A DNA stretch of 37,847 bases from a virus, in the IMG/VR virus record IMGVR_UViG_3300036760_000668, positions 1 to 37,847 of that record; one strand, written 5' to 3'. Below the pieces are notes generated by a model. That model did not search any database, had not been told where the DNA came from, and saw only the letters and a list, made by a program, of their open reading frames with translations. Below, one piece after another: positions 1 to 11,831 of the stretch; position 1 is the stretch's first letter, and the number at the start of each line of letters is the position of its first letter. The position numbers and the translations under genes are program-made.

Positions 1-349
1 ATCAATTTACCCGCAGGTAAACGGCTACCGGGAAGGACCCTGAGAACATGGCACTTACTTCTGTTTGGATTGGCTGACTGCCGTTTCGGGCGACAACTCA
101 GTTAGTCAGTATGTACCACACCACAGGTTGGGTAGTCAAGCAAAAAAACGCGTACAGGTGGCGTCACACTGTCACAGCCTCGCGCGCACGAAGAGTGCTA
201 CCAACCATGTATCAAAGCAATCAATACCAATTTGCACATCCAACAGAAAAGTCTACCAATCTACTGTGACAGCAGTGACAAGAGTGACAGGCTTTCGAAA
301 CCAGGAACTTAGCCCGTCACATATAGCCCAACGAAGTCAGATCACTCAC

Positions 350-382
350 GTGACACCGTGACAAATCTGTCACACGTGTCAC
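350..382. repeat. Imperfect inverted repeat built from GTGACA units
   Basis: The left arm (350-363) carries two GTGACA words. The right arm (368-382) carries two TGTCAC words. The arms differ by a single-base length change and some central bases, with a 4-nt centre (aatc). The dyad could bind a dimeric or tetrameric protein, or extrude as a cruciform. It has no T-run immediately after it and sits downstream of the operon terminator, so a second terminator is less likely than a binding site. Confidence 0.5.
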
Positions 383-384
383 AC

Positions 385-431
385 CAAAAAACAAAAACGT
401 CACACCTCCCACCCCTCAAGGGAGATGTGAC
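385..431 (-). terminator. Rho-independent terminator of the minus-strand operon
   Basis: Read on the minus strand, 431-420 pairs with 410-399: a 12-bp stem with one G-T pair and a 9-nt loop. It is followed by a T-rich tract (397-385, interrupted by single Gs). It lies 40 bp after the stop of the primase-helicase gene, so it ends the leftward transcription unit. The stem arms contain the GTGACA word found repeatedly in this region. Confidence 0.85.
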
Positions 432-470
432 ATTCGATAAAACACCTGGAATTGAAATTAGAGAAAAGCC

Positions 471-2621
471 TTACGGCATCACACCCACCGCCGGCCACCG
501 CCAGAACCGATTCCGAACTTGATTCCCATTCGGCCCCAACACCGCCTTACCCTCGCTATCCACGACCCGCTCCTGAACATACTCGAGCCCATGCCGCCGC
601 AGAATGCGCCCGATCCGCCGCACATCAGCCTGCGTCCACGCGACCTCTGGCTTCTTGATCGACCCCGCCAGGATACGCTCGCTTGTGATCCGGTAGGCCT
701 CCGGCGGATTGAAGCCGCCCGCCACAAATCCGTCCCGATCTGTGGACACCCACATCCACACCAGATCGTCCCATCCGTCCGCTTCGTACCGGCCTTCCTG
801 TTCCTCCTCCGCCAGCTTCACCAATTCTGGATCGTCCAGATACCACGCCGCCCGCGCCTCGTACTTCGCCCGCGCCTCCGCCCACAGTTGATCGCGATCG
901 CGCTGTAGCGCCGCAATATCGATTGCCCCACAGGACACCGGCCAGAAACGCCGGCCGCCCGTTTCATCTTTCAGAAATTCATCGAGATTCACGCTGCCGG
1001 CGAACACGCACTGCCGCGCGAAGTCCTGCGGCCGGCGTTCATAGGGCGGCCGGAAACGATCAAAGCGGCACGTGATGAACGCCTTCACGGCGCCTTCTTC
1101 CGCCCGTCTTCCCACCACGTCCTGCAGCTCCGCAAACTCCACGATCCATTTGCCGTGAATGTTTTGCAGGCTGTCCTTTTCCTGCAGATCTCCCACCCGA
1201 TCCGTGAACCATTCATCGCCGGCCAATACGCGCAACGCGGTCGATTTCTTGCGCCCCTGCGGCCCTACGAGAACCAGGCAATGATCCGCCTGGCAGCCTG
1301 GCTGCATCACTCGCGCCACTGCGGAAATGAGCCAGCGGGAGCCAACCGCGCGCGAATATCGGCTATCCGCCACTCCTAGATACCGAGTGAGCCAGGGGTC
1401 CAGGCGCTCGACGCCATCCCACTGTAGCTTCGCTAAATACTCGCGCACCGGATGGAACTTGGCGTTCTGCGCGACGGCCGCCACCGCCTCGGCGGCATTC
1501 GTCTTACCCACATGACAGCCCTGGTGCTGTAAGTACTCGGCCAGCCGGATATCGTCGACCTCGCACCACTCGCGGGCCTGCCCATCCCACGGCGTCCCCT
1601 GGAGCGCCATTGTCCGCACCGCGAATTCATCGTGCGATACCATGCCCGCGAGTTCCTCGAGATGAGTCAGGAATGTGATCGCATTGGCCAGCATTGGCTT
1701 AATTCCGTTGTTGTCGCCGCGGATCAGCATGCCTTCCCAGGCTTCACCCCGGACCGCTTCAGCCACGGTGGCCACCTTGCGTTTGCGCGTCTTCCTCCGC
1801 GCCTTGCCAAGTTGCCGGATCGTCTCTTCGGGCCCGCGCTGCGCCAGAAAATCGTCGATCCCGTTGACGGTCTCCGGTATATCGGACGGCCAGTCGAACC
1901 AACTGATTTCCGCTCCGCGGCTTTCCAGCTCGCGCGTCAATCCGCGACGCGCCTGTGCAACGCCTTCGTTCGCCTTGACGTTCGTGTCGTACAAAAGCAC
2001 GACGTGGCGCCCCGGCCACTCGACGCGGCCGAGATCCGCGATGGCGCCTTTGACATTCCGCCAGGTCCCGGGCCGTTCGTCTTCGATGCGGCCGATCTTA
2101 CCCCGCCACGAATAGACGCCTTGCAGTCCGATAGGAACAAACGCCGGCGCGTCGGCCGCGTCTCCCAGCCCGTGCCACGCCAGGCGCCATAGAGCCAGCG
2201 CCTTGAACTCACCCTCGACAATCACCAGCGGCATCCCGGCATCGTCCAGCCAGCGCGCCTCCATCGTGGGGGGGAAATATAGCGCGTTGCCGCGACCTGG
2301 CGGCCCGATGTACTTCCGTCCCTGGCGCATCGTTCCCAGGTGATCCGCTTCAAGATCCGGATGATCCCGGCGGATGCGGTACAAGATGACGTGGTTTTCA
2401 CCAGGCCAAATGTACGGAATCGCAATGCCGCCAAAGTCGGGGCCGCCCTTCCACTCGTGCCCCTCCTTCCCCGCCTGGCCGACCAGCTCGGCGCCGTCGA
2501 AAGAACCGACTCGACGCAACAATGCCGCATCCGCATGCTCGCGTGAGATCCACCGAGCCTCCAAAGCCGCATAGTCCGAGTCTGACAACGGCCCTCCAGT
2601 GAGATTAGGCGGCAGGTTCAC
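471..2621 (-). CDS. VapE-type primase-helicase with N-terminal TOPRIM/DUF3854-like region
   Basis: Likely the phage replication protein: a primase-like module joined to a D5/VapE-type superfamily 3 ATPase. The N-terminal part has a TOPRIM-like VIVEGEFKA (about residues 133-141) and VVLLYDTN (about 207-214), as in DUF3854 primase-like domains. The ATPase part has Walker A GPQGRKKST (about 453-461), a Walker B-like KWIVEFAEL (about 491-499) and the VapE-family signature LKDETGGRRFWPV. The GTG start at 2621 is chosen because GGAGG lies 8 nt upstream. A longer TTG start at 2666 exists but lacks such a site. With GTG the product has 716 aa. It overlaps the upstream gene by 17 nt and is the last gene before the terminator. 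Confidence 0.88.
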   Translation of the reverse strand: MNLPPNLTGGPLSDSDYAALEARWISREHADAALLRRVGSFDGAELVGQAGKEGHEWKGGPDFGGIAIPYIWPGENHVILYRIRRDHPDLEADHLGTMRQGRKYIGPPGRGNALYFPPTMEARWLDDAGMPLVIVEGEFKALALWRLAWHGLGDAADAPAFVPIGLQGVYSWRGKIGRIEDERPGTWRNVKGAIADLGRVEWPGRHVVLLYDTNVKANEGVAQARRGLTRELESRGAEISWFDWPSDIPETVNGIDDFLAQRGPEETIRQLGKARRKTRKRKVATVAEAVRGEAWEGMLIRGDNNGIKPMLANAITFLTHLEELAGMVSHDEFAVRTMALQGTPWDGQAREWCEVDDIRLAEYLQHQGCHVGKTNAAEAVAAVAQNAKFHPVREYLAKLQWDGVERLDPWLTRYLGVADSRYSRAVGSRWLISAVARVMQPGCQADHCLVLVGPQGRKKSTALRVLAGDEWFTDRVGDLQEKDSLQNIHGKWIVEFAELQDVVGRRAEEGAVKAFITCRFDRFRPPYERRPQDFARQCVFAGSVNLDEFLKDETGGRRFWPVSCGAIDIAALQRDRDQLWAEARAKYEARAAWYLDDPELVKLAEEEQEGRYEADGWDDLVWMWVSTDRDGFVAGGFNPPEAYRITSERILAGSIKKPEVAWTQADVRRIGRILRRHGLEYVQERVVDSEGKAVLGPNGNQVRNRFWRWPAVGVMP

Positions 2622-2838
2622 GCATCCCGTCCTCCGGCGCCGACGCTTTTCGCTTGCGATTCGCAAGCTTTCCCCAGTTGTTCCGCCGCCATGCGATCGC
2701 CTTCAGGGCGCGGCCCCGGGCACAGTCGCAGCGCTCCAATCCGCCGGAGAAAGCATCCATGCACCACAAGCCCTCGAACTGCCGGCACTGACCGCAGGGT
2801 GCCGGCAACGGGCCGCGTTTGCGCCGGCGGCGTCTCAT
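2605..2838 (-). CDS. Small basic cysteine-rich protein, unknown function
   Basis: A 77-aa protein starting with an arginine-rich stretch (MRRRRRKRG), followed by CGQC, WC and CDC cysteines that could bind one zinc ion. The C-terminal half is again basic (NWGKLANRKRK). The start overlaps the stop of the DUF5131 gene (ATGA), and its 3' end contains the ribosome-binding site of the primase-helicase gene. A nucleic-acid-binding role is plausible from charge and cysteines, but no family is recognised. Confidence 0.6.
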   Translation of the reverse strand: MRRRRRKRGPLPAPCGQCRQFEGLWCMDAFSGGLERCDCARGRALKAIAWRRNNWGKLANRKRKASAPEDGMREPAA

Positions 2839-3495
2839 GCACCGGGGAACTCCCGCCATTCCAGCCCATCGAGCAGCGCGCCGGCCAAGAAGAACGGCAC
2901 ACCCGCCGCCACGCACTGATCGCGCACACGCCGTACCCACTCCGGATGCATGGGCCGCGCACCCGGGCCGGACTCCCCACCCACAATTACCCAGTGGATG
3001 CCACTACCCAACAGTTCGTCCAAAGGCGTGTGCATACACAGCTCACCGCATTTTGGACAGGCGAATCCGGGATCGTCTTCCGGCCCTGCTTCAATGGCCA
3101 GGGACTCCGCACCCACCCATTTGCAGGCGCCGCACTCTAAGCCGGTCTCCGTCCAGCGCTCCAGATCCACGGGCCCAAGCAGCGGTTCGATGGACAAGCC
3201 GCGGCGCCCGAACCGGGTCCCCAGCAACTCCGTCACGCGCCACAGGTAATCCGCGCTCTCCACCGACGTCATCCCCACGACGTTCAGTCGCGGATTTTCC
3301 AACCAGGCCGCCGGCAAAAGGCGCCGGAAATTCTGCGGCCGTTTCGTCAGCAGCAGCCAGTCCAGCCAGGGCGTCGCCTCGATCAGCGGATACAGTTGTC
3401 GCTCCCGGATCCCTTGCAGATACGCGCCCTCTTCCATCACGTCGCAGTGCGACCCGCAAAATACGGGAATTATATAGATGACTACCTTTTTTCTC

Positions 3496-3524
3496 TTGAC
3501 AATCGTGAGGGAGTAATCTACTAT
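3496..3524 (+). promoter_or_regulatory. Sigma-70-like promoter of the IS passenger gene
   Basis: TTGACA at 3496-3501 and TACTAT at 3519-3524 are separated by 17 bp, just inside the left IS end. An inverted repeat CTACT/AGTAG overlaps the -10 region and start point and could be an operator. The promoter points at the passenger gene and probably also serves the transposase. Confidence 0.75.
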
Positions 3525-3540
3525 AAAAGAGTAGCAAGCA

Positions 3541-3557
3541 GCCCGAATCCATCGGGC
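3541..3557 (+). promoter_or_regulatory. Leader hairpin just before the passenger-gene ribosome-binding site
   Basis: GCCCGA and TCGGGC form a perfect 6-bp stem with a 5-nt loop. It ends a base or two before the AGGAG of the passenger gene (ATG at 3570). Such a hairpin could tune translation or shield the IS genes from read-through. No T-run follows, so it is not a typical terminator. Confidence 0.5.
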
Positions 3558-3569
3558 AGGAGAAAAAAG

Positions 3570-4067
3570 ATGACCCAAACGACGTTCACCAAGACCGATG
3601 CCACTGGCGTAACTTTCGGTGGCCACAAGATTTCCTCTGACTTTGTTGTGGGCGGCAAATTCGTGCCCTGGTCCACGCTCAAAGCGGCGGCAGTACAAGA
3701 AGACAAGGCCCTTGCCGCCGCATATGCCGACGTGCTGGCGCGCGCCGAAAAGGCGGAGGCTAGCCGTCAAACATCGGAGAACTGGAAGCAGTACGGCTAT
3801 CCCCTGCGCACTGGATTTAATGGCGCGTATCGTGGCCAGATCGTCATGTGCGCCTGGGAAATCCGCCGCGTCCAACGCAAGGGCGTTGATGCTCACGTCG
3901 GCTATATCGTCGAGTGGGACCGCTCGACCAACACCACATCCATTATCGCCACGTCGCCGGAATTGCCTGATTTCGACGCAGCAACGGCGTGGGTGCGTGA
4001 GAATTACGGCTCCTCCACTGAGGATATCGGCGGAGAGCGCACGGCCAGCACATGGCTCTACGCCTAA
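3570..4067 (+). CDS. IS passenger gene, unknown function
   Basis: A 165-aa protein preceded by AGGAG and by the IS-internal promoter. It starts MTQTTFTKTDATGVTFGGHK. It has an alanine/glutamate-rich, probably helical stretch around residues 45-65 (AAAYADVLARAEKAEASR), then an aromatic, strand-rich part (YRGQIVMCAWEI, HVGYIVEWDRSTNTTSII). No membrane segment, signal peptide or known motif is seen, and I do not recognise the family. It is not needed for the standard IS1595 DDE chemistry, so it is cargo or a regulator. IS1595-family elements with passenger genes are known. Confidence 0.8.
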   Translation: MTQTTFTKTDATGVTFGGHKISSDFVVGGKFVPWSTLKAAAVQEDKALAAAYADVLARAEKAEASRQTSENWKQYGYPLRTGFNGAYRGQIVMCAWEIRRVQRKGVDAHVGYIVEWDRSTNTTSIIATSPELPDFDAATAWVRENYGSSTEDIGGERTASTWLYA

Positions 4068-4163
4068 ATCTCTGCCGTGCCCCTCGCCTTCATCGGCCTC
4101 CGGGTAAGCAAAGCGTCCGAAGGGAAATCGGGGCCGGTACGTAACCCGGCAAAGGTCCAAACG

Positions 4164-5081
4164 ATGAGCAAATCTACAATCAGCACGTTCGAGCTTTTCG
4201 ACCTCTTCCCAGACGAAGAGTCCGCCCGCGTGTACCTGGAAGGTCGCCTCTGGCCTGATGGCGTAGCCTGCCCGACCTGCCAAGCCAAAGACCGTATCAC
4301 GCCGCGCGCCAACGGCTACTATCGCTGCAACGCGTGCCAACTTGATTTCACGGTGCGCACTGGGACGATTTTCGAGCGGTCGCACGTCCCGTTGCATAAG
4401 TGGGTCTATGCCATGTATTTGCTCGTAACGGCCCGCAAGGGAATCTCTTCGTTGCAACTTGCGAAGGAGATTGGCGTGACTCAGAAAACCGCGTGGTTCG
4501 TCCTGGGGCGATTGCGCGAGGCGTGCGGCGGGGAGTTTGAAAAACTCCAAGGCACTATCGAGATTGACGAAACGTTCGTCGGCGGGAAAGAGAAAAACAA
4601 GCACGAACACAAAAAGCTCAAAGCTGGACGCGGATCGGTCGGCAAGACTGCCGTACTCGGAATGCGAGAGCGCGGCGGGCGTACGGTGGCGATGGTCATA
4701 CCGAGTACCGATGCCGGGACAGTCCAAAACGAAATCCACGGCGCGGTGAAAGTCGGATCGCAACTCTACACCGATGAGTTCGGCGCATACACGGATTTGG
4801 ATGGCCTGTTCTTTCGTCACGAGACGGTCAACCACAGCGCGAAAGAGTTCGTCCGAGGTTCGGCCCACACTAACGGCATCGAGAGCGTCTGGGCCGTCCT
4901 GAAGCGCGGGCTGCATGGCGTCTACCATCACGCCAGCCCGAAGCACTTGCATCGCTACGTAGATGAATTTACGTGGCGACTGAATGAAGGCAACGTCAAG
5001 CGGCACAGCCTGCGACGGCTGGACAGTTTCGTAGACGCGACGAAGGGCAAGCGCCTCACCTATCGGAGGCTCTGCCGATGA
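4164..5081 (+). CDS. IS1595-family (ISXO2-like) transposase
   Basis: A 305-aa DDE transposase. An N-terminal zinc ribbon has C36, C39, C55 and C58 (CPTC ... CNAC). A helix-turn-helix-like region around residues 90-115 includes LQLAKEIGVTQKTAWFVLGR. The catalytic core shows D135 (IEIDETFVGG), D204 (YTDEFGAY) and N237/E240 (HTNGIESVW), the ISXO2-type pattern. The ATG at 4164 starts the conserved part; an upstream ATG at 4077 would add unrelated residues. It lies 96 bp after the passenger gene and overlaps the next small ORF by ATGA. It appears intact. Confidence 0.95.
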   Translation: MSKSTISTFELFDLFPDEESARVYLEGRLWPDGVACPTCQAKDRITPRANGYYRCNACQLDFTVRTGTIFERSHVPLHKWVYAMYLLVTARKGISSLQLAKEIGVTQKTAWFVLGRLREACGGEFEKLQGTIEIDETFVGGKEKNKHEHKKLKAGRGSVGKTAVLGMRERGGRTVAMVIPSTDAGTVQNEIHGAVKVGSQLYTDEFGAYTDLDGLFFRHETVNHSAKEFVRGSAHTNGIESVWAVLKRGLHGVYHHASPKHLHRYVDEFTWRLNEGNVKRHSLRRLDSFVDATKGKRLTYRRLCR

Positions 5082-5191
5082 AACCTCCCGTCCCTCCGAT
5101 CCTCGACAAGATGGCCGATTTGGTGCTGAATTATCGACCGAAAGAGAAGGCCAAAAAGCCCCGAAAACGGAAGAAAGCGAAGCGCTCGTAA
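5078..5191 (+). CDS. Short lysine/arginine-rich ORF of the IS
   Basis: A 37-aa ORF whose ATG overlaps the transposase stop (ATGA), suggesting translational coupling. It begins MKPPVPPILDKMADLVLNYR and ends in a tract of mostly K and R (KKPRKRKKAKR). The charge suggests binding to DNA, RNA or the transposase. It ends 22 bp before the right terminal repeat. It may be an accessory of transposition; function unknown. Confidence 0.55.
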   Translation: MKPPVPPILDKMADLVLNYRPKEKAKKPRKRKKAKRS

Positions 5192-5467
5192 GTGGCTGGG
5201 AATTATGAGTGTAGGTAGTCATCTATATAATTCCCCAAAATACGCGCCACAGTTCACCACAGGCCTCTGCCTCGCGATTCCACTTAAGCGGCTGTTCCCA
5301 ATACCCTTCCGAGAGCGCCCGGCGTCCGGCATCCTTGCCCCACACATTGTGCCCATACCGCACCGCCTCCCGCTCCGCGTAACAGTGGTCGCATCCCGGC
5401 GAAACCTTCGTGCAGCCCCACCACGGATTAAACGTGGCATGCGTCCACTCGATTTTGGAGCGTTTAC

Positions 5468-5815
5468 TCATAGTTTCGCCCGGAATCGTTCTAGCGCCCC
5501 GATATGGACATCCAGGGCTGACGGACCCGCGCAGCCGCAGGTTCGATTTCGGCATCCTTTCAGGAGTCGGATCGCCCCATCGCACACGCGTGCGGCCCTG
5601 GTCCACCACCATCGCCGCGACCTCCGGAGGAAACAGGGCGTCCATTGCCCGATAGGATAGATTCGTTCCGGCACATCCGCCGGGTGTACCGCCTCGATGA
5701 AGTCCGACAAAATCGCATTCAGCTCCCGCAACCGAATACATTCACCGCGCAACAGAGTCAATTCGCAATGCGCCTGGTTGGCTTCATCCTCGAACCGGCG
5801 AACCAGCTCAGACAT
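5468..5815 (-). CDS. Coiled-coil-type small protein, possibly frameshifted
   Basis: A 115-aa frame with GGGAG six nt before its ATG. The stop overlaps the start of the DUF5131 gene (ATGA). The first 55 residues look protein-like and helical (MSELVRRFEDEANQAHCELT, LRELNAILSDFIEAV). The second half is rich in W, R and C and looks out of frame. The neighbouring frame over 5645-5472 reads more naturally (MDALFPPEVAAMVVDQGRTR) and runs into the DUF5131 start. A frameshift near 5645, or two overlapping genes, would explain this. Function unknown. Confidence 0.55.
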   Translation of the reverse strand: MSELVRRFEDEANQAHCELTLLRGECIRLRELNAILSDFIEAVHPADVPERIYPIGQWTPCFLRRSRRWWWTRAARVCDGAIRLLKGCRNRTCGCAGPSALDVHIGALERFRAKL

Positions 5816-7736: not shown

Positions 7737-9596
7737 TCAGGCCGCCCTCGCCAGCGCTCCCAGTTTCCGCGCCGACCAGTCGCGCACCATTACCACATCC
7801 TTGCCCAATCCCACGGCGAGTTCGCCGATGCGCGTATACGCCGCGAACAGTGCCGGCGTCGTACCCTCGAATCCAACCGACTTCTCCGTGTCCGCGTAGA
7901 GCCGCTCGCTCCTCTCCGGCCCGCCCTTCAACGCAACCTTGATCGTCGCCGTCCATCCATCGGCCAGCCGTTTCTTACGCGGCGCCTGCCAACCGCCGCC
8001 TCGATGTGCCCCTTGGCCGTTGCCCAGCACGATCTCCGCCAGCACGGGGCCCTTCGCCCGCGCCCGCAACTGGATCTCCACGCCGTTGTCGCTCTCCACA
8101 CCCGCGAATACCTCCGCCAAAATGCCCTTCTTCTTCGGCGCCGCCATTTCCGCCGCCACGTCCTTCTCGATCGCCTTCCAGTTCACTCCGGCCGCTTCCG
8201 CCCGTTCGCGCAGACTCTCCCCGACGGCGGCATCGCGGCTCCAGGTGTGGTACGTCAAGTCCCGCACCAGCGAGAACTCCATCAGCAGCCGTTCCAGCTT
8301 TTTCTCCGGCAGATCGCCGATCGGCAGGAGATCCGCATCCCATTCCGGATGCCGCTTGCCGATCAACCGCCGGTAGTCGGAGCCCATATTCTCCCACCAA
8401 CTTTCCACCGCGATCGCCAGCAGGTTTGGCAACGTGGTGCCGGCATCCAGAATCGCGTCCACCACGCGTCCCCGCACCGCCCGCGCCAACTCCACCTTGC
8501 GATTCGCGGCCGCCACCTTCGCCTTCTCCGCCGCCGACCGCTCATACCCGCCACCGTTCGAATGGCGTCTCTTATGCTTACCGCACAACGGATCGGTGCA
8601 CACCTGGACCTGCGTCCCGATCCCATCCCCGAACACCACGATTCCAGCGGCCGCCGACCCGCACACATCCTTTTTCTGCCGGATCGGAATGTACTGCCCG
8701 ATCTCCAGCACGTGTTTCGGCTGCCCCTTCCAGTACCCCCACCCGCCCTTGACCCGCACCAGATCCCGATTCCTCCGTAGCTCCCGCGCCACGTGCGCCT
8801 GGACCTTTCCGTCGAAGCATGCCCGGTCCGTGCACACATCCGGCGACGTGATCTCCGGGAACAGCTCCCGCGCATTCCCGCTCCGCCGCGGACACGCCTC
8901 GCAGGATCCGGCCGCCGGCGTCAACTCCGCGTCCGCCCGATCGAACGGCGCCGCGTCCAGCTTCAGCAGCACCCTGCTCTTGATCCAGTGGTCCAGGTCC
9001 CGCACCCCCACGCCTTCCCGCTCCGTCGCATACCCCAGCGCCATCGCCTGGTGATCCGGATTCCGCAGCCGCGCGATCAGGATCGCGTGATTCGTCGTGA
9101 TTTGCCCCGTCCCCACCGCGTCCTTCACCGCCGCCGGCAGCTCGATCAGCGCCAGGCGCTGATAAATCACCCGCGCCTTCTTCCCCAGCCGCGCCGCGAT
9201 CTGCTCCGCCGTGTATCCATAATCCTTCATCAGCTCGCGGAAACCCTCGGCCTCCTGGATCGCGTCCACGTTCTTGCGCTGCAGATTCTCGACCAGTTGC
9301 ACTTCCCGCGCCTGGCGATCGTCGTAGGTGCGCACCACCACGGGGCACACGTCCATGCCCGCCAGTTGCGCCGCACGCCATCGCCGTTCTCCCGCCACCA
9401 GCAGGTAGCCGCCATCCACACCGCGCCGCACGATCAAGGGCTCGATCATCCCCACCGTGCGCAGCGAGTCGGCCAGCTCCGCCAGGCCGTCCGGTTCAAA
9501 CGTCCGCCGCGGGTTAAACCCCGAGGGCGCGATCGCCCCCACCGGGATGCTCAGGTATTCTTCCGCCGCCGCCGTCACCATTTCCATAGGATCCAT
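7737..9596 (-). CDS. ParB/Srx-type DNA-binding protein with two cysteine clusters
   Basis: A 619-aa protein. Residues about 17-110 are the ParB N-terminal domain: IPVGAIAPSGFNPRRTF, the GERRWRA box (69-75) and VENLQRKNV (102-110). An HTH region follows (EQIAARLGKKARVIYQRLAL, about 131-150). The C-terminal 400 residues include CEAC ... CTDRAC (C232, C235, C255, C260) and a second CTDPLCGKH cluster, probably zinc-binding. Plasmid and ICE ParB relatives show the same plan. ParB-domain proteins bind and hydrolyse CTP or act as nucleases. No ParA is seen nearby, so a regulator, nuclease or replication role is as likely as partition. The start overlaps the upstream gene by 22 nt. Confidence 0.85.
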   Translation of the reverse strand: MDPMEMVTAAAEEYLSIPVGAIAPSGFNPRRTFEPDGLAELADSLRTVGMIEPLIVRRGVDGGYLLVAGERRWRAAQLAGMDVCPVVVRTYDDRQAREVQLVENLQRKNVDAIQEAEGFRELMKDYGYTAEQIAARLGKKARVIYQRLALIELPAAVKDAVGTGQITTNHAILIARLRNPDHQAMALGYATEREGVGVRDLDHWIKSRVLLKLDAAPFDRADAELTPAAGSCEACPRRSGNARELFPEITSPDVCTDRACFDGKVQAHVARELRRNRDLVRVKGGWGYWKGQPKHVLEIGQYIPIRQKKDVCGSAAAGIVVFGDGIGTQVQVCTDPLCGKHKRRHSNGGGYERSAAEKAKVAAANRKVELARAVRGRVVDAILDAGTTLPNLLAIAVESWWENMGSDYRRLIGKRHPEWDADLLPIGDLPEKKLERLLMEFSLVRDLTYHTWSRDAAVGESLRERAEAAGVNWKAIEKDVAAEMAAPKKKGILAEVFAGVESDNGVEIQLRARAKGPVLAEIVLGNGQGAHRGGGWQAPRKKRLADGWTATIKVALKGGPERSERLYADTEKSVGFEGTTPALFAAYTRIGELAVGLGKDVVMVRDWSARKLGALARAA

Positions 9597-9847
9597 ACCC
9601 CCGCGATCGCCACCACCGCCCAGCGCGTCACCCTCAGCCGCCGGCGCAATCGGCGGTACCGCGCCCACAGGCGCCGCCGGTTGGCCCGCATCCGGTGGAT
9701 CCGGCTCACCGCCGCATCCCGCCCGTCGACCACCGCCTGGTACTGCGCCGCCGCCACCACCTGCGCCGGCATCCCGGCCGCCATCGCCCGGTCGATCTCC
9801 GTCAGCCACGCCACGTCTTCCGCCGTCAACCGCAATTCGCCGTTCAC
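9575..9847 (-). CDS. Small protein with C-terminal membrane helix
   Basis: A 90-aa protein from a GTG at 9847, chosen because AGGAG lies 6 nt upstream and the GTGA overlaps the preceding stop. It has an acidic/alanine N-terminal half (LTAEDVAWLTEIDRAMAAGM), an arginine-rich middle (RRRLWARYRRLRRRLR) and a terminal hydrophobic segment (WAVVAIAGVWILW) that should insert in the membrane. Unknown function; the tail-anchored form suggests a membrane-tethered phage factor. Confidence 0.55.
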   Translation of the reverse strand: MNGELRLTAEDVAWLTEIDRAMAAGMPAQVVAAAQYQAVVDGRDAAVSRIHRMRANRRRLWARYRRLRRRLRVTRWAVVAIAGVWILWKW

Positions 9848-10008
9848 CGGCACGCTCCTGCACACGCGTGCGCCAGATCCGCCCGCCACATCAGCCAGCA
9901 GGCGCCGGCGAAGATCGTGCCCGCCACCGCCAGCATCGCCAGGGCGCGTCCCAGACGTACCCTCCCGTGCCGCTGCGGTTCTTCCGGCCAGCCATTCCAC
10001 GCCATCAT
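9844..10008 (-). CDS. Small single-span membrane protein
   Basis: A 54-aa protein (MMAWNGWPEEPQRHGRVRLG) followed by a hydrophobic helix (ALAMLAVAGTIFAGACWLMW). The ATG at 10008 is supported by AGAGGAAG directly upstream. A longer frame reaching 10119 would cross the hairpin at 10047-10076, so the short form is preferred. It overlaps the next gene by GTGA; the pair may work together at the membrane. Confidence 0.5.
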   Translation of the reverse strand: MMAWNGWPEEPQRHGRVRLGRALAMLAVAGTIFAGACWLMWRADLAHACAGACR

Positions 10009-11174: not shown

Positions 11175-11348
11175 CTACGCGGCCGATCCGAGGTAGGCGC
11201 GCAAGGCTTCTTCGATTACCTGCTGCTTGGAGCAGTCCCGATGCGCCGCCGCAATCTCGATCGCACGGTCAATGGATTTCGGAATCCGGATACTGACCGG
11301 AATTCGCGGATCCCGGTTTGCAGGTCCGTTTTGTGCTAAGGTTTGCAT
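11175..11348 (-). CDS. Ribbon-helix-helix (CopG/Arc-like) DNA-binding protein
   Basis: A 57-aa protein. RIPVSIRIPKSIDRAIEIAA forms the predicted strand and first helix, and KQQVIEEALRAYLG the second helix, as in Arc/CopG/MetJ repressors. The ATG at 11348 gives the usual RHH length; the longer frame reaches into the promoter. It is transcribed leftward from a good sigma-70 promoter overlapped by a 12-bp inverted repeat, so it probably represses itself and perhaps the divergent gene at 11430. Confidence 0.75.
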   Translation of the reverse strand: MQTLAQNGPANRDPRIPVSIRIPKSIDRAIEIAAAHRDCSKQQVIEEALRAYLGSAA

Positions 11349-11363
11349 GATTGCTTGCACTTG

Positions 11364-11392
11364 ACTATAGGAGCAAAAGAGCAAAGTGTCAA
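11364..11392 (-). promoter_or_regulatory. Sigma-70 promoter driving the ribbon-helix-helix gene
   Basis: On the minus strand TTGACA (11392-11387) and TATAGT (11369-11364) are separated by 17 bp, a near-consensus arrangement. The start would lie a few bases before the gene's ATG at 11348, giving a very short leader. One arm of the inverted repeat sits between the -35 and -10 boxes. Confidence 0.8.
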
Positions 11393-11414
11393 TACTCAAA
11401 TACTCTTTTGCTCC
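11370..11414. promoter_or_regulatory. Operator-like 12-bp inverted repeat in the divergent control region
   Basis: GGAGCAAAAGAG (11370-11381) is perfectly complementary to CTCTTTTGCTCC (11403-11414), with 21 bp between. The arms are centred about 33 bp apart, three helical turns, so proteins on them would sit on the same face. One arm covers the promoter spacer of the RHH gene. This fits cooperative repressor binding; the RHH protein is the obvious candidate. Confidence 0.7.
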
Positions 11415-11429
11415 CGTGAAAGCACGCAG

Positions 11430-11831
11430 ATGCTTGAAAATAAAGAGAATTTAGTCACGCTAAAAATCCAATCCGGCGACCGTGAATGGGTCAAGGACGA
11501 GCAACGCCGAATCCAAAAGGCCGAAGGTGATGAGCCTACACACGCCGAGCTGTTCCATCGCTTGCGCGTCGCGTACGAAGTGGACACCGCCACGCAGCAA
11601 TCCTCTCGCCCCGTCGAGCTCCCCGGTCCCTTCGCCGGCCTCACCGACGATCAGATCTGGCTCATCAACAACGTTATCGAGATCTTTCGCGATCAGCCCC
11701 AGGCCTCCATCTACCGGGCCATGGAAAATACCATTCAACTGGCAGTCAAAGAACATCGAAAGACCAGGCAGCCCAACAGACATGCGAAAACTTCAACTCA
11801 TGATCAACGGCGCACCGGCGGCGGTATCTGA
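11430..11831 (+). CDS. Plus-strand protein divergent from the RHH gene, unknown
   Basis: A 133-aa protein (MLENKENLVTLKIQSGDREW), mostly charged and helical (WVKDEQRRIQKAEGDEPTHA, IEIFRDQPQASIYRAMENTI). The last 20 residues are basic and low in character. It is one of the few phage genes on the plus strand and faces away from the RHH gene across the operator. A TTGCAT-N17-TATAGG pair (11343-11371) could be its promoter. The arrangement suggests a regulatory gene pair. No known family. Confidence 0.55.
   Translation: MLENKENLVTLKIQSGDREWVKDEQRRIQKAEGDEPTHAELFHRLRVAYEVDTATQQSSRPVELPGPFAGLTDDQIWLINNVIEIFRDQPQASIYRAMENTIQLAVKEHRKTRQPNRHAKTSTHDQRRTGGGI

Follow-up and report, generated by a model that had tools for sequence, protein, structure and literature searches.

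A dense run of GTGACA words behind the gene of a phage primase-helicase raises the question of whether such an array serves DNA replication, partition, gene control or packaging. The window analysed here is the whole of a linear virus record of 37,847 bp (64% GC), in which nearly all genes lie on the minus strand. A major capsid protein and a tape measure protein are encoded, whereas terminase and portal are absent, and the contig is therefore incomplete. An IS1595-family element, whose transposase ORF lies at 4077-5081 on the plus strand, interrupts a minus-strand DUF5131 (Gp37/Gp68-type) gene (2835-5741). As reported in the first-pass annotation, positions 163-432 hold nine exact copies of GTGACA or TGTCAC, at 170 (-), 266, 275, 284, 350, 358 (+), 368 (-), 377 (-) and 427 (+). 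The further elements described there are equally present: the three tandem copies stand exactly 9 bp apart, the dyad reads GTGACACCGTGACA AATC TGTCACACGTGTCAC, and GTGACA is built into the stem of the hairpin assigned to the operon terminator. Three GTGACG variants, at 162 (-), 315 (-) and 398 (-), are found in addition.

Followed in gene direction, that is, towards descending coordinates, the stop codon at 471 is succeeded by the hairpin, the dyad, a spacer, the triple, an AT stretch, the outer pair, the putative promoter and a block at the edge of the contig, and the array starts 39 bp past the stop (Table 1). The hairpin is a candidate for both the end of the replication operon and the outermost iteron. 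AT content is raised only to 50% between the two main sets, and its peak sits past the second set. A simple promoter and terminator scan of positions 1-1000 listed nothing, not even the hairpin; the promoter-like sequence, partly conserved in relatives, was likewise missed by the consensus scan, and an Rfam search of the contig returned no match.

Table 1. Coordinates and properties of the primase-helicase gene and of the elements following it, in window numbering
Feature	Position	Strand	Details
VapE-type primase-helicase, 731 aa, proposed origin-binding initiator	471-2666	-	Pfam VapE-like (1.6e-77) and DUF3854
C-terminal winged-helix domain (predicted), proposed iteron reader	474-749	-	about residues 640-731
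Hairpin with the word in its stem, then the T-run GTTTTTGTTTTTT on the gene strand	396-434		fold -25.8 kcal/mol
Dyad of four half-sites, 8 or 9 bp apart; first iteron cluster	350-382		350, 358 (+); 368, 377 (-)
Spacer between the inverted clusters, 60 bp, with one GTGACG at 315	290-349		50% AT (contig 36%)
Three direct copies exactly 9 bp apart; second iteron cluster	266-289		266, 275, 284
Most AT-rich stretch of the region, candidate melting site	201-265		63% AT
Outer pair GTGACG/GTGACA, 8 bp apart	162-175		L004 counterpart 706/715, 9 bp apart
Putative sigma-70-like promoter toward the terminase genes	108-139	-	TTGACT, 18 bp, TACATA; read from the alignment with relatives

The word is far from equally frequent along the genome, since the nine copies in 163-432 compare with only eight in the other 37.4 kb, all of them scattered. 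No second array occurs in the contig, and the cluster score of the array, 14.6, exceeds the maximum of 8.3 obtained with 200 first-order Markov random sequences of the same dinucleotide composition. A nucleotide search of phage records detected no relative of the array itself. The GC skew of the contig was uninformative as to an origin because nearly all of its genes are on one strand.

The product of the gene preceding the array matches the phrog_256 helicase (3e-100) and carries its DUF3854 domain ahead of the helicase. Among solved structures its sole strong sequence match is SaPI PriRep1 in complex with dsDNA (7pds, 5.9e-77), and chains of this same entry are the best six matches in a Foldseek search with the helicase model (7.6e-31), in keeping with an SF3-type helicase related to the SaPI PriRep/Rep initiators. 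The C-terminus is predicted to form a winged helix: the last 97 residues were modelled by AlphaFold2 with a pLDDT of 88 in an H-H-E-E winged-helix layout, and the structural neighbours of this domain are mostly winged-helix proteins, including the C-terminus of PriRep1, with modest Z scores of 4-6. Foldseek alone yielded no significant match to the isolated C-terminal domain, and a scan of bacterial genome contigs with the primase found no relative.

The position of the array behind this gene is not peculiar to the contig. A hexamer-cluster scan of terminase loci first brought up a similar array after the primase gene in another locus (L016), and loci were then collected by primase family, 82 of them having at least 300 bp downstream. 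Of these 82, 51 have their best hexamer cluster within 900 bp 3' of the primase gene, with 6.6 expected. Dereplication left 23 of 36 within this distance (2.8 expected; p about 3e-17, calculated on sequences that are still related to one another), while the same test on the upstream side gave 0 of 37. Several other loci have their array 2-5 kb downstream, and some have no clear array. The words vary from locus to locus (GTGGGA, TCACCA, TCCCAA, GGACCA, GGAAAC, GGTCAC and others), and 9 bp is the commonest spacing between neighbouring copies of the same orientation. A frequent plan consists of two to three direct copies, about 90 bp of DNA in which AT is usually raised, and two to three inverse copies; it is followed in complete phages of Pseudomonas (L125, L127 and L128), Marinobacter (L126), Clostridioides (L209) and Streptococcus (L210). 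In Staphylococcus phage 2638A (L211), CGTCCC/CGTGCC repeats in 9-bp steps occupy this place, the best cluster of the locus being elsewhere. Judged by sequence, the origin plan of PICIs and SaPIs recurs in dozens of full-size phages.

The scans also turned up arrays in other surroundings. At L014:4522-4835, upstream of terS, GTAAGC forms an array of two sets in opposite orientation on either side of very AT-rich DNA; the large gene before the array encodes no recognised primase (weak FtsK/STAND-like matches), and the array is conceivably an origin of this kind served by a different initiator. The strongest of the hexamer clusters encountered, with a score of 23 in the terminase-locus scan, belongs to a Paracoccus prophage (L053:225-500), where AGGTTC is repeated 13 times in about 300 bp at a great distance upstream from the terminase.

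The nearest two relatives that share the gene order are L002, whose primase is 68% identical to that of the contig, and L004. In both, the primase gene is followed by a gap, terS and terL, and the gaps align with that of the contig; relatives of the contig additionally encode terminase, portal and protease. The layout is kept in both, and the word differs at every site. L004 alternates TGACA and TTACA in 9-bp steps at 511/520, 592/601/610 and 706/715, and L002 carries AGTCA copies mostly in 8-bp steps. Counterparts of the dyad and of the hairpin are found at the same places, each hairpin stem holding the word of its own phage. The search for the motif at the same place in relatives thus succeeded for the array and failed for the exact GTGACA word, and absence from relatives, proposed in the first-pass annotation as a refutation of a functional site, needs rewording, given that the array is present there with a changed word. 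Such a change is what is expected of co-evolving iterons, and sites that change in concert point to a single DNA-binding protein co-evolving with them. No array was found upstream of terS in L005 (terminase 49% identical), in which the gene order differs. Between the promoter and terS, L004 has an additional short ORF (L004:873-1217) that contains an HTH-like stretch (SYRQIADQVGCTRQHVGQIVKATG) and is absent from L002 and the contig.

Sites for cos or pac packaging are often located 5' of terS, which is where the array lies in L002 and L004, and the conserved block GGGTCCTTCCC..GGGTAAATTGA is found between array and terS; both points would suit a packaging role of the array, as a set of recognition sites for the terminase small subunit. 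This candidate cos block, however, is separate from the array and stands beside it, arrays follow the primase even when no terminase comes next, as in L209 and L210, and PICI origins of the same grammar drive plasmid replication (PMC6092414), which leaves packaging as an extremely improbable function of the repeats. The block lies upstream of terS at L002:3622-3690 and L004:1159-1240, where it is followed by GTGGGNTTTTGGGGAGTCGTCAGTC, and at 1-40 of the contig, which starts inside it. Across the whole family GGGTCC was not enriched as a cos hexamer upstream of terL (12/45 versus 20 expected), and the longer GGGTCCTT is present upstream of lambda-type terminases in 7 of 45 cases.

Direct repeats 8-9 bp apart also suit ribbon-helix-helix (RHH) proteins, and the repeats of the array could in principle be operators through which a phage regulator controls a terminase or late promoter at 108-139, all the more as the outer pair stands just upstream of the conserved promoter-like sequence. 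Against this, the promoter of the contig's RHH gene (11175-11399) is covered by a separate dyad, GGAGCAAAAGAG/CTCTTTTGCTCC, with an unrelated word, the arrays of other phages follow the primase whether or not a terminase is next, and a symmetrical array of 270 bp exceeds the size of an ordinary operator. Control by a regulator is consequently improbable as the function of the array, although a dual role, as origin and in the control of the putative promoter at 108-139, is possible. The 12-bp dyad of the RHH gene occupies a divergent promoter region (11340-11440) between this minus-strand gene and an unannotated plus-strand ORF from near 11429 (MLENKENLVTLKIQ...), and the arrangement resembles a compact regulatory switch that has a separate operator.

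The contig also encodes, at 7737-9863, a ParB-like protein with ParB_N, HTH_ParB and a GERRWR motif, and 368-383 (TGTCACACGTGTCACA) agrees with the classic parS palindrome at 12 of 16 positions, both of which would be in line with a parS-type partition site. Yet no ParA-type ATPase was detected by PF13614 or PF01656 within the contig, itself incomplete, of six complete phage records with arrays of this type five have no ParB_N, the parS-like CACGTG core is not retained in L002 or L004, and the position of the array tracks the primase gene and not parB, so that partition appears very unlikely. With the ParB-like protein as query, no relative was found among viral contigs. Out of the three options put forward in the first-pass annotation, namely replication origin, ParB partition site and RHH operator array, the last two are disfavoured by these observations, while the origin is supported by the uniqueness of the array, its family-wide 3' position and its PICI-like grammar, with the neighbouring primase-helicase as the likely binder.

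Word and C-terminus of the protein also vary together: with the distance between helicase cores controlled for, the distance between motifs correlates with that between C-termini (partial r 0.27, permutation p 0.0005). Under the same control, a correlation of almost equal strength is obtained for the N-terminal half, of which little is left once the C-terminus is controlled for. L153 and L164, with cores 98% identical and C-termini 78% identical, use GGTGAC and TGGGAC, respectively, and L180 resembles L181 in its core (96%) while sharing both C-terminus and word with L159. Hence, at the level of the sequences, word and C-terminus switch together between near-identical helicases. Residue 698 (731-aa numbering), a column that stands out among those of low diversity, is Q in nine of the ten GGTGAC phages, while every one of the 31 TGGGAC phages has K or R there. 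On the core tree the word class needs four changes and residue 698 three; independent pairs gave three cases for an association of word and residue, none against and one without difference, and the sign test (p = 0.25) is not significant because independent switches are too few. Since array and C-terminus are often adjacent, joint transfer by recombination could partly explain the linkage.

Taken together, we consider it highly probable, at roughly 86%, that the array is a theta-type replication origin whose iterons are bound by the adjacent VapE-type primase-helicase via its C-terminal winged helix. According to this model, the winged-helix domain would contact the GTGACA iterons, protomers being accommodated by direct copies spaced at about one turn of the helix (8-9 bp), and a pair of helicase rings would be nucleated by the two clusters of opposite orientation. 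After melting the AT-rich DNA beside them, these rings would travel away from each other while unwinding and priming at both forks, and the outermost iterons would lie within the stem of the terminator of the replication operon.

A literature search, in which open sources prevailed over subscription journals, gave no description of such origins for phages with VapE helicases, and in 2018 PICI-type origins were described as unique to PICIs. We rather favor the view that an origin of the PICI plan is standard for tailed phages with a VapE helicase and not a PICI hallmark, the C-terminus and the word forming a swappable module with a partly readable code, in which Q at position 698 goes with GGTGAC and K or R with TGGGAC. 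The arrays of full-size Pseudomonas, Marinobacter, Clostridioides, Streptococcus and Staphylococcus phages and of environmental contigs suggest a single replicon family shared by satellites and phages. A sequence rule becomes available for finding origins in thousands of unannotated phage contigs, and initiator-iteron specificity becomes testable by the swap of one domain or one residue.

The mechanism proposed is already known from PICIs, SaPIs and SCCmec. In EcCICFT073, a plasmid with rep and the region 3' of rep replicates in E. coli, deletion of either abolishes replication, and the origin consists of two iteron sets flanking an AT-rich region (PMC6092414). This region, read from E. coli CFT073, contains 11 copies of GGTAGA in 220 bp behind the primase gene. 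No hexamer cluster in the surrounding 12 kb scores higher (17.5), and the copies show a 9-bp spacing, occur in both orientations and include a hairpin built of iterons. The array of the contig shares with this origin the place directly 3' of a primase or initiator gene, the inverted hexamer sets (350-382 and 266-289, at 8-9-bp spacing), the 9-bp step and the hairpin. It differs in its word and in its VapE initiator, that of EcCICFT073 being D5_N/DUF5906, and EcCICFT073 is a satellite, whereas the contig belongs to a phage with its own capsid and tape measure genes and hence is no helper-dependent element devoid of structural genes. The likeness to phage P4 concerns the protein: the winged-helix domain of the primase-helicase alpha of this satellite binds the origin (ori/crr), as cited in PMC10516667. 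Cch2 of SCCmec, which is not a phage, likewise uses its C-terminal domain to bind direct repeats immediately 3' of its own gene (PMC7581432), but only three iterons of 5 nt, and no second inverted set, are reported there. In the SaPIs, whose Rep proteins, like Cch2, bind iterons just 3' of their own gene by the C-terminal domain (PMC7581432), the resemblance covers both partners: the short iterons directly 3' of the initiator gene, and a self-loading helicase that belongs, by sequence and fold, to the same family as PriRep1 (PDB 7pds, 7ola), although SaPIs are satellites of staphylococci with AEP-family primases (PMC7581432) and the protein of the contig has DUF3854 before its helicase.
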